Shown one piece after another: positions 57,419-60,505 of a DNA stretch of 64,000 nucleotides. The translations under genes and the position numbers were made by a program. The notes under the pieces were generated by a model. It ran no database searches and was not told where the DNA came from. It saw only the letters and a list, made by a program, of their open reading frames with translations. The DNA comes from Verrucomicrobiota bacterium (lineage in GTDB: Bacteria > Verrucomicrobiota > Verrucomicrobiia > Verrucomicrobiales > Verrucomicrobiaceae): NCBI GenBank assembly GCA_017301975.1, contig JAFLEI010000007.1, positions 124,001 through 188,000 on the forward strand, read 5' to 3'. Numbering within the stretch: the stretch's first letter is position 1; every line of letters starts with the position of its first letter.

Positions 57419-57664
57419 GGGACATGTATGGCCATGGGCAGCCCTCAGAGCAAGCGCCCATCCCTATTGATTGCTGAGAGCCAGTGGTTCAGAAGAAAAC
57501 ATCTTTATTTCGAAAACAACATTAGCTGTTCAAACCGTGTTTTTCAAATCTATCCCTAGAATATATAATTTCCATTGCATAAATGAGTCTCAATGATCAT
57601 ATTCAAGAACATGATCCCGCTCGCCGACTGTTTACTAAATTTTCCATATTCCCCCGCCTGAGTT

Positions 57665-60505
57665 ATGATTGAAGGGCCTCAACTCCTTGGATCCCTCTCC
57701 TTGGCCAGCCAGCGCAACGGCTCGCCAATCAAACTGCCGCGTGCCCAGGACGAAGTAGTCATGCTGGCGTTCGATCAGCGAAACAGCCGTTTGGTGGAAC
57801 TTCATATCTGCACCGGGAAAGCGGCACCGGCTCCGCCTCAAGAGCCTCCCGCACCCATGAGACGCTGGGTCAAGCCGATGAGCCGGCAGTCACGCCAAAA
57901 GTGGGGCCCTTCGCGGCGTGGCCGACCCAAATCCTCGCCCGGCGGCCGGCAACCTCTTCGAAAAGCGCGTGTTCAATCCAAGTACCTCCATCGCTTTTAC
58001 GAGCCCAAATTAACTTCGGAGCCCAGGGTGGCGACTCCAGAACTCGTCGATGAAGATCTCCAGTTCCGAACCTGCGAACTGCTGCGAGGAGCGACAGCGC
58101 TGCGCGGCCACTCCTTCATGACCATTCTGGAGGTTGGCGTGGACGACGGCCTCGCCTACTACGTCACCCACCTCAATGACGGGGAGTTCGTCCAGCAGTA
58201 TGTGCAGAGGCGCGGAGCCGTACCCACCGTCACAGCACTTGCCTTGGTGCATCAGCTTCTTCAGGATCTGGGCAGAGCCGAGGAACAAGGACAGCTACCT
58301 TCAACGGTGAGTCTGGAACGCGTGCTCGTTTCATCCCAGGAGGAGGAATATTTGCAGCTCCGTCTGTTTGACTATGGGCTGTCGCAGCCAAAGTCCGAAG
58401 CCTTCGGCCAGCACAGCTCCCGTCTTGTGCGCGAGGCCTGCTGCCTGCTGTTTTTGCTGATGACAGGCCAGTCCTATTCGGGCGGGAATCCTGACGACTC
58501 CGTCGTGATCGCTGAACTGCCGGCCAACCTTCGTTTCCTGATCAAATCAGCCCTGACCAGCCCGGCCGTTGATTCGATTTCAAGAAAGGCTCTGCGTGAT
58601 GAAGTGCGCGAGGCAATGTGCTCGTACGTCACTTTGGTTCAGGCACGGAATCCAAAGATGCTTCTGGTGGCCGAACCTTCCACCCTGCCCGTCTCCCATC
58701 TGCAGACGCTGCTGCTGGGAGACATCCCGCTGGAGACCCTGTTTGGAACAAGCTTCCGCATCCAAAATCCGGAACTTTCCGGCTGCCATCCATTCGCCAT
58801 TTCAGCAGTCAATGCATCCGCTGAAATGCCGGTCACGCTGCATCTTCTGCCTCCTGAACGCATCATCCGGCAGTCCGGCTTCACGACCTTTCCCCCGCAG
58901 GTATGGCGACAGGATCCGGCGAAGCAGGCCAACATCCTGCACCTGATGAGTCTGTGGAATGGCCCTGATTGGGCCTTCCTTTCCGAGGCGCGTGAACCTG
59001 GCATGGCCCTCAGCGCCCTCATGGCGAAACGCGGCACTCTCAATCCGGGAGAGGTGGTCACTCTGCTGAGGCAGATCCATGCCGGCGTGGAACAGGCGGC
59101 TGAAACCGGCATGCAGCGGGTGGATCTCGACCCGGCAAACATTCAGCTCTGTGTCGGTTATGACGGCCCCGTCCTGCCTCGTGACCTGGAGCGTCTGCAC
59201 CAGAAGCGGCTGGATGCCTGGCCCAAATTTGTGGTGAAGCTCCGTCTTCACAAAACGATGCGCAGCCTGTGCAAGCCGCGCCTGATCGATCTGAGCCCAT
59301 GGGGCCGCCTCCCCCATGAAGAAACGACCGGGAGCGCCGCCCGTGAGGAGTGCAATCGCTCCTTCATCTGTCTGGCGATCTATCTCATCACCGGAGTTGG
59401 TCAGATGAGCCAGATTACCGGCGTTCCCACCAGCATGCCTGAACTGGCGGCAGGCTACCTGCATGAATGCCTGCAGCAGGTGCTGTGCGGCGCCCCCGTT
59501 CCCTGCCCGCCCGAATTCACCGAAAAGCTTTCCTATCTCCTCACCGCAGCCAGCGCGGAGATGGACTCCATCGAGGACCCGCTTGCCTCACAGGAAATGG
59601 AAAGCGCAGGCTTCATCTCTGATTTTGAGGAAGACCGGGCCCCGGAGGAGCCCTCCATGGAACTGGCGCGAAAAACTCTCCTCCTCGCGCCGGTCAGCGC
59701 CGATCTCCAATCACTCGACCTCCATCGTTCCGCCCCCCCCCGGTTTGCCTTTCCCTGGCTCGCCCTTGCAGCCACGGCCGCCCTCCTCGGGGCGCTGGCT
59801 TGGATGATCTTTGGTGAAATGCCCGAAGCCCCCTCGCCGGTCCTCACGGAGGCTCCAAAATCATCGAAACACGAAGCAGCGCTCTTGCCGAAGGAGATCG
59901 CAGGGACCACTCCCGACACTGCGGTCAATCGACCCGCGCAGCCGCTGCCGCAGCCCATCATTCATAAAACCCCCGCACGGGTGGTCGAACCCCTCGCCCA
60001 GCCCTCACAGCCTCTCTTGGTGGCCGAAGTGACGGCACCCGCTTTGCAGAAGGACGCCCTCTCAAGCTCCATGCCAGCGGCTCCTGAAACGGCAGACTTC
60101 ACACCGGCCCTCAGTGCGCCGTCCCCATCCACCGAAAAAATGGCGGAGCCCCGCCTGCCAGAACCTCCGTTGATCTTGGCCGAAAAAACTGCGGCCAGCA
60201 TGCCCGCACCCGAGCCAGAACCCGTCATCCGCCGCGCCATCCTCGCGACGCCGGAAGTCGCCCAGTCTTCTCCACTCCCTCCAAAAGAGGTCGCCACCCT
60301 TCCCGCTCCGCCACAGACTCAACCTGCCCAGGCCGAGCCACCGGCACCCCAGCCTGCCGTAGCATCCATTGCCACCCCGCCGGCCCATGTCGCGAAATTG
60401 GAGGCAGTCACCATCCGCCACGCGATCGTCATGACACCCGAAGAAATCAACGAGGCACTCCGTGCACAAGCCAAAGCGCGGAAACGAAGCTCGAAAAGAC
60501 GCTGA
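57665..60505 (+). CDS. membrane protein with two degenerate protein-kinase-like domains
   Basis: A 946-residue protein that I cannot match to a named family. Residues about 145-330 look like a kinase domain: 'ILEVGVDDGLAYYVTHL' and 'LRLFDYGLSQ' (DYG in place of DFG, D236), but the HRD-x-x-x-x-N loop is gone ('STVSLERVLV'). Residues about 360-625 look like a second one: 'PVTLHLLPPERI' recalls the VxLKxLPPE strand with Lys changed to His393, 'RVDLDPANIQL' keeps D487 and N492, and 'LIDLSPWG' keeps D542. A membrane helix lies near 696-716, and the last 230 residues are Pro-rich and probably extracytoplasmic. It has no signal peptide. Likely a pseudokinase-type scaffold or sensor. Confidence 0.78.
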   Translation: MIEGPQLLGSLSLASQRNGSPIKLPRAQDEVVMLAFDQRNSRLVELHICTGKAAPAPPQEPPAPMRRWVKPMSRQSRQKWGPSRRGRPKSSPGGRQPLRKARVQSKYLHRFYEPKLTSEPRVATPELVDEDLQFRTCELLRGATALRGHSFMTILEVGVDDGLAYYVTHLNDGEFVQQYVQRRGAVPTVTALALVHQLLQDLGRAEEQGQLPSTVSLERVLVSSQEEEYLQLRLFDYGLSQPKSEAFGQHSSRLVREACCLLFLLMTGQSYSGGNPDDSVVIAELPANLRFLIKSALTSPAVDSISRKALRDEVREAMCSYVTLVQARNPKMLLVAEPSTLPVSHLQTLLLGDIPLETLFGTSFRIQNPELSGCHPFAISAVNASAEMPVTLHLLPPERIIRQSGFTTFPPQVWRQDPAKQANILHLMSLWNGPDWAFLSEAREPGMALSALMAKRGTLNPGEVVTLLRQIHAGVEQAAETGMQRVDLDPANIQLCVGYDGPVLPRDLERLHQKRLDAWPKFVVKLRLHKTMRSLCKPRLIDLSPWGRLPHEETTGSAAREECNRSFICLAIYLITGVGQMSQITGVPTSMPELAAGYLHECLQQVLCGAPVPCPPEFTEKLSYLLTAASAEMDSIEDPLASQEMESAGFISDFEEDRAPEEPSMELARKTLLLAPVSADLQSLDLHRSAPPRFAFPWLALAATAALLGALAWMIFGEMPEAPSPVLTEAPKSSKHEAALLPKEIAGTTPDTAVNRPAQPLPQPIIHKTPARVVEPLAQPSQPLLVAEVTAPALQKDALSSSMPAAPETADFTPALSAPSPSTEKMAEPRLPEPPLILAEKTAASMPAPEPEPVIRRAILATPEVAQSSPLPPKEVATLPAPPQTQPAQAEPPAPQPAVASIATPPAHVAKLEAVTIRHAIVMTPEEINEALRAQAKARKRSSKRR

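Follow-up and report, generated by a model that had tools for sequence, protein, structure and literature searches.

A tandem pseudokinase membrane protein of a Prosthecobacter-like bacterium: a probable non-catalytic scaffold whose closest paralogue is encoded beside bacterial tubulin genes

INTRODUCTION

What work can a membrane protein do with two kinase-like domains if neither holds a complete set of catalytic residues? This question is raised by a gene in a 64,000-nt stretch of DNA (here called the window) whose host is a Prosthecobacter-like bacterium. An earlier note, made from the letters of the window, had read its product as two kinase-like domains with complementary losses, followed by a membrane helix and a long Pro-rich tail, and had offered a scaffold, a sensor, or unusual nucleotide use as its role. 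Bacterial pseudokinases have been described in a 2025 review as largely unexplored by experiment (PMC12599244).

RESULTS

An intact gene under purifying selection

57541..57569, (+) strand: candidate sigma-70-like promoter, TTTTCA-17-TATAAT (10/12 matches, consensus scan only), with the ATG 95 bp on
57665..60505, (+) strand: whole gene, paralogue A of a tandem-pseudokinase family, a single ORF of 946 aa

The open reading frame had been correctly recognized as one frame, and it represents a real gene, since seven further genomes of the genus carry full-length orthologues (clade A) that are 51 to 69% identical by blastp. Among the closer A orthologues, the median pairwise dN/dS was lowest in the first N-lobe (0.05), followed by the membrane helix (0.10) and the two domain cores (0.16 each), and was higher in a basic insertion (0.38) and in the Pro-rich tail (0.41). 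The values for the N-lobe and the domain cores argue that the gene is not decaying and, by this measure, that both kinase-like domains are under purifying selection.

Both domains have a kinase fold

57677..57814, (+) strand: N-lobe of kinase-like domain 1 (residues 5–50), with the β3 motif VELH (AlphaFold2, hhalign, median dN/dS 0.05)
57803..57805, (+) strand: H47, the His at the β3 ATP-binding Lys position of domain 1 (His in 80/85 tandem relatives)
58040..58690, (+) strand: core of kinase-like domain 1 (residues 126–342), with P212-S213-T214 in the HRD columns and DYG at 236–238
58700..59560, (+) strand: kinase-like domain 2 (residues 346–632), with H393, the RVDLDPAN loop, an insertion at 498–521, and R527

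Scanned alone against Pfam up to E = 10, the window protein matched only Pkinase, at E = 0.29 and thus below the curated cut-off. Profiles built from 49 to 50 relatives reached PknB/Stk1-type kinases with domain 1 (E = 1.2e-12) and StkP with domain 2 (E = 3e-9); PknE was also reached by profiles of the kinase-like domains, and hhalign comparison with a profile made from the genome's own kinases gave probabilities of 98.6 to 99.3%. The AlphaFold2 models of the domains, built from 49 to 50 sequences of one order, are of the kinase type, with a mean pLDDT of 76 for domain 1 (including a disordered insertion) and 84 for domain 2. Specifically, the N-lobe of domain 1 is modelled as strands 28–35 and 40–47 (AlphaFold2 numbering) in a block with a pLDDT of 79 to 92. 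The best Foldseek matches among solved structures were protein kinases (E = 3.8e-9 and 3.4e-8), as were all of the 50 best solved structures listed, kinase-domain chimeras and complexes included, with moderate TM-scores of about 0.4 to 0.7 against known kinases.

Profile searches, AlphaFold2 models, and Foldseek thus all uphold the claim of two kinase-like domains, and structure prediction, which could have gone against it by returning some other fold, found the kinase fold in both. By bilobal fold and homology, the protein belongs to the protein kinase fold (Pfam Pkinase clan), and with at least one of VAIK, HRD, and DFG lost, it counts as a bacterial Ser/Thr pseudokinase. NCBIfam identities as a TOMM kinase-cyclase or a PASTA kinase scored far under their cut-offs and were rejected as reflecting the kinase fold alone.

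The catalytic losses of the two domains overlap

In domain 1, H47 aligns in register with the VALK/VVLK of intact homologous kinases, four of which carry the Lys at this position. HRD..N is replaced by PST..R, with P212-S213-T214 in the HRD columns, and the DYG with D236 is kept, which agrees with the earlier description of a domain with a DYG and without an HRD loop. H47 itself had been overlooked because the 73-aa basic insertion parts the first N-lobe from the rest of the domain.

The earlier description of domain 2 was correct in part. H393 does occupy the β3 Lys position, and the RVDLDPAN loop does retain D487 and N492, but the Asp that was taken for that of the DFG, D542, is probably not at this position. 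D542 falls 50 residues beyond N492; canonical kinases have about 13 residues from the loop Asn to the DFG Asp (PKA N171 to D184). The model shows β7 at 493–497, a 24-residue insertion at 498–521, and β8 at 522–526 ending at R527, and 83 of the 84 relatives that could be scored share this Arg, whereas D542 is variable. Given the modelled end of β8, the loop spacing, and the conservation of R527, the DFG position of domain 2 probably lies at about R527/L528.

The proposal of complementary losses therefore does not stand: the β3 Lys is gone from both domains, so the losses overlap rather than complement each other, and D542 is probably not a DFG residue. Neither domain has the β3 Lys of an active Hanks-type Ser/Thr kinase, and neither combines an HRD Asp with a DFG Asp, domain 1 having only the DYG and domain 2 only D487. 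Judged by these residues, both domains are probably without phosphotransfer chemistry.

The losses are shared by an old family restricted to one order

We gathered 86 tandem relatives from the order, with totals of 84 to 86 at individual sites according to the number of scorable sequences. All 86 are without Lys at β3 in both domains and without the HRD loop in domain 1; no domain in any of them has its catalytic residues complete. The homologue search that the earlier note had suggested, for relatives with the same residues lost, accordingly recovered these losses family-wide. D236 is Asp in 75 of the 86 sequences, among which G173 and E174 are invariant and R182 and W519 nearly so. Of the 36 members of clades A and B, 32 retain the HRD Asp of domain 2, and the remaining 4, which are among 28 close paralogues, have Glu or Ala instead; in clade C, this Asp is lost and so is the Gly of DxG in domain 1.

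The alignment is able to detect intact residues, since the VALK, HRD, and DFG of four single-domain relatives (L125, L126, L127, and L128) fall into the same columns. These four were rejected as tandem homologues with a full catalytic set because each has one intact kinase domain, with no recognizable second in three of them. They come from the same bacterial family and are close active homologues of domain 1, possibly of the ancestral type.

By profile search, 64 of the 68 genomes of the family encode tandem relatives, and every one of the 47 genomes that are ≥90% complete and ≤5% contaminated has at least one member. Tandem relatives are also present in other families of the order, and among 241 genomes sampled across the phylum, matches at E ≤ 1e-25 occurred in members of the family only. 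These double pseudokinases form an ancient family confined to one order. One distant tandem relative (L058, 7271 onward, a 1146-aa ORF) has apparent Sel1-type repeats past the membrane helix and no Pro-rich tail. In three genomes, the gene immediately before paralogue C encodes a 780-aa protein with no Pfam match (L041, 6453–8795), a possible partner of that paralogue.

A basic insertion, two conserved motifs, and a single membrane helix

57821..58039, (+) strand: basic insertion found in clade A only (residues 53–125), 73 aa, predicted to be disordered
59597..59635, (+) strand: acidic juxtamembrane motif MESAGFISDFEED (residues 645–657), consensus MESxGxVSDFxxD
59750..59812, (+) strand: single transmembrane helix (residues 696–716), hydropathy peak 2.02
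59813..60394, (+) strand: Pro/Ala-rich tail, a fast-evolving spacer (dN/dS 0.41)
60224..60256, (+) strand: second, weaker copy of the tail motif, VIRRAILATPE (residues 854–864), a weak profile match (E = 2.2)
60407..60454, (+) strand: C-terminal motif VTIRHAIVMTPEEINE (residues 915–930), conserved as IRxAIxxxxEE

The insertion within domain 1 contains 18 K/R, 3 D/E, and 14 P, with a pLDDT below 50 across model residues 53–123; it is missing from paralogue B and strongly basic and Pro-rich in all eight A proteins. Its composition recalls that of microtubule-associated proteins, but that of nucleic-acid or lipid binders as well. Conservation of the MESxGxVSDFxxD motif extends beyond clades A and B to relatives in other genera. 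Past domain 2, the analysis bore out the reported membrane helix and Pro-rich tail: one transmembrane segment at 696–716 is followed by 230 residues that include 43 P and 42 A. From a charge bias seen in both A and B, we infer that the N-terminal side of the helix, i.e., the kinase-like half, lies in the cytoplasm. The end motif IRxAIxxxxEE is common to A, B, and proteins encoded next to bacterial tubulin (btub) genes in other genera. Searching the genome of the window with this motif retrieved only A and B clearly, and a 1748-aa ORF (E = 0.07) was judged a chance match.

Genomic neighbours of the window gene

The window gene is surrounded by genes for a PIG-L deacetylase, a tannase/feruloyl esterase, RimO, and a response regulator, and of these only the tannase gene is still directly beside the most divergent A orthologue. 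All four were rejected as candidate partners, as retention of the tannase gene alone fits ordinary synteny. The earlier remark that no kinase or phosphatase partner is nearby is accurate for the window, since PF00069, PP2C_2, and FHA have no match on its contig, but it misses that the closest paralogue adjoins tubulin genes (see below). Genome-wide, no fewer than 28 kinases score above the Pfam cut-off, and there are 2 PP2C and 9 FHA matches; these proteins could supply phosphorylation partners. We took the sulfatases and other widespread genes found around B and C to be genomic background.

The closest paralogue lies upstream of bacterial tubulin genes

The closest paralogue of the window protein belongs to clade B and is 40% identical to it. 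In the phylogenetic tree, A (support 1.0) and B (0.99) form separate groups, and the proteins encoded next to btub in other genera branch beside them. On contig C5 of the same genome, B is encoded directly upstream of two tubulin genes and a gene for a TPR (kinesin-light-chain-like) protein (L040, 9110–11716 and following; contig C5, 103109–108726), and a further locus with B and btub is L047, 7030–13420. A btubA-btubB-bklc operon is known from Prosthecobacter (PMC5372463). In 26 genomes of six genera (19 of the genus of the window, including G021, in which the B tail alone remains at a contig end, and 7 of five other genera), B is on the same strand as btubA and about 250 bp upstream of it. 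B is thus encoded next to btubA-btubB-bklc, unlike the window gene; A occurs at a separate locus in eight genomes, seven of which have btub, the eighth not being counted as lacking it.

Among the 68 genomes of the family, with G021 counted, 40 have both B and btub, 21 have neither, 5 have B only (one cut at a contig edge and one 74% complete), and 2 have btub only (one cut at an edge). Co-occurrence was significant (Fisher p = 5e-10, computed before G021 [L176] was counted as having both), and a model of dependent gain and loss outperformed an independent one on the single-gene tree of paralogue C (p = 3.6e-6). However, because linkage lets one deletion remove both B and btub, these statistics overstate functional coupling, and part of the association is explained by physical linkage. 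In one subclade with btub elsewhere, B occurs without btub in three well-sampled genomes (G003, G010, and G025) and btub without B in one (G005). No btub genes adjoin the members of clades C and D, and the end motif is absent from the shorter relatives (L152 and L156) of g16, a genus lacking btub.

Several further observations concern these loci. In G010, one of the genomes without btub, the B copy (L036, contig C14) contains a TGA codon in frame, carries Ala in place of the loop Asp of domain 2, and is possibly decaying, and G018 has two btubA-btubB pairs on contig C9 (13216–16052 and 234034–236843). We also found btubA-btubB in six further genera of the family (G283, G289, G290, G291, G292, G296, G297, and G298). 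The flanks of btub have reportedly been walked before, by Pilhofer et al. in 2007. Bacterial btub has been stated to be confined to Prosthecobacter (PMC9871819); its range is apparently wider, although these genera may have been split from Prosthecobacter.

DISCUSSION

The earlier suggestion of a scaffold or sensor is best met by a scaffold: we put the probability that the window protein is a non-catalytic, single-pass inner-membrane scaffold built from two pseudokinase folds at roughly 70%. The argument for it is that both domains are kinase-shaped and without catalytic machinery throughout an order, in a protein that the computations show to have a transmembrane anchor, two conserved motifs, and domains under purifying selection. 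The scaffold function and its binding partners we infer as follows. In the cytoplasmic half, the two tandem kinase folds would bind protein partners without phosphotransfer, the MESxGxVSDFxxD motif may serve as a docking or phosphorylation site for an active Ser/Thr kinase of the same genome, and the Pro-rich tail would take the end motif to a periplasmic partner. Non-catalytic membrane pseudokinases have precedents in EssB/YukC and MviN (PMC12599244).

A pure scaffold would not require H47 and D236 to be kept as strictly as they are (His in 80 of 85 and Asp in 75 of 86 tandem members, despite the universal loss of HRD), and this conservation could mean a bound ligand. Domain 1 might then bind a nucleotide or metal non-canonically through H47 and D236 and signal through domain 2 and the helix, a possibility with which the N-lobe being the most constrained segment (dN/dS 0.05) is consistent and for which the DYD and DLHK pseudokinase families, modelled with non-canonically bound ATP despite a missing β3 Lys, offer a parallel (PMC12599244). 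Yet a Gly-rich loop is not recognizable in the alignment, the models are ligand-free, and clade C has lost the Gly of DxG as well, and we consider such a sensor unlikely. An active enzyme of an unusual kind, carrying out AMPylation or glutamylation as SelO or SidJ do, is less likely still: some motif-altered pseudokinases do catalyze other reactions, but SelO and SidJ keep their ATP- and metal-binding residues, Lys and D-x-G (tabulated in PMC12599244), whereas both β3 Lys residues are gone in all relatives here and domain 2 is without the DFG Asp. A decaying gene or chance similarity, which the single-sequence Pfam score under the cut-off might suggest, is refuted by the conserved full-length orthologues, the low dN/dS, and the strong profile and fold matches.

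A more specific form of the scaffold, whose likelihood overlaps with that of the scaffold in general, would be a microtubule adaptor. In this reading, B and, by descent, A would hold or regulate BtubA/B filaments at the membrane; Btub or Bklc would be bound in the cytoplasm by the pseudokinase domains, and the tail would attach the whole assembly to the cell wall or outer membrane. Btub is known to be tethered to membranes by Bklc (PMC5372463), and its tubes, most of them found in the stalk, lie parallel to the membrane (PMC3232192). The conserved position of B upstream of btubA, the co-occurrence and linked gain and loss of the two, the presence of btub in seven of the eight genomes with A, and the end motif, which btub-adjacent proteins have and the shorter relatives in g16 do not, all favor this adaptor. 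It has to be set against them that loss by a single deletion makes the correlation partly one of linkage, that B and btub occur without each other where btub lies elsewhere, that the family predates btub and extends beyond it, with clades C and D away from it, and that the window gene is itself not near btub. We regard the adaptor as a tentative proposal, and it is no less speculative that the double-His family supplies a missing fourth component of the bacterial microtubule system, with B and its duplicate A as a transmembrane anchor or regulator linking BtubA/B-Bklc filaments to the envelope of the prostheca and the tail motif holding on in the periplasm. The word kinase is absent from the btub papers PMC5372463 and PMC3232192; the adjacency and co-occurrence of B and btub are new here, and a link of the family to bacterial microtubules is our hypothesis.

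For the scaffold as such, an order-wide fixed loss combined with strong purifying selection offers a clear example from nature of a kinase fold retained for non-catalytic work. A sister gene next to microtubule genes suggests a testable role for a little-studied family, e.g., in cultured Prosthecobacter, and if the association with btub is functional, it would name an additional component of the bacterial microtubule system and suggest a way in which the filaments are held at the envelope.

We found no account of two pseudokinase domains in tandem that carry His in place of both ATP-binding lysines together with an almost invariant Arg at the DFG position of the second domain, and the window protein fits none of the bacterial pseudokinase families from PMC12599244 with which it was compared. 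The DYD and DLHK families likewise have the β3 Lys replaced, and DLHK keeps the HRD Asp and Asn, as does domain 2 of clades A and B; however, their β3 residue is Arg (DYD) or Thr (DLHK, AVLT) rather than His, they belong to other phyla, and DLHK is without transmembrane helices. With His at both β3 sites and a DYG in domain 1, the window protein also lacks the β3 Arg and DYD that define the DYD family. PknB, StkP, and PknE, the closest by profile and fold search, share the fold and the architecture of cytoplasmic kinase, transmembrane helix, and external part; the window protein differs in being tandem, in having no Lys/HRD/DFG set, and in having no PASTA domains. With the Prosthecobacter btubA-btubB-bklc operon, the point of contact is paralogue B immediately upstream, and the difference is that the window gene is unlinked.

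EssB/YukC resembles the window protein in its cytoplasmic N-terminal pseudokinase, single transmembrane helix, extracytoplasmic C-terminal part, and role as a non-catalytic scaffold (PMC12599244), but it has a single pseudokinase domain and is a type VIIb secretion component of Firmicutes. The Pfam scan to E = 10, with Pkinase as its sole match, gave no EssB/YukC match, and the neighbouring genes (PIG-L, tannase, rimO, and the response regulator) are not a type VIIb secretion locus. MviN (ActPs3) is likewise a pseudokinase in a membrane protein without VAIK, HRD, and DFG, and a phosphosite beside its pseudokinase domain recruits an FHA protein (PMC12599244). In comparison, its domain is single, with VALT at β3, in a flippase-like actinobacterial membrane protein, and whereas all three motifs are degraded in ActPs3, the DYG of domain 1 and D487/N492 of domain 2 remain here. 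By the tests made, the window protein belongs to neither family, and by analogy it would work as EssB/YukC or the pseudokinase domain of MviN does.
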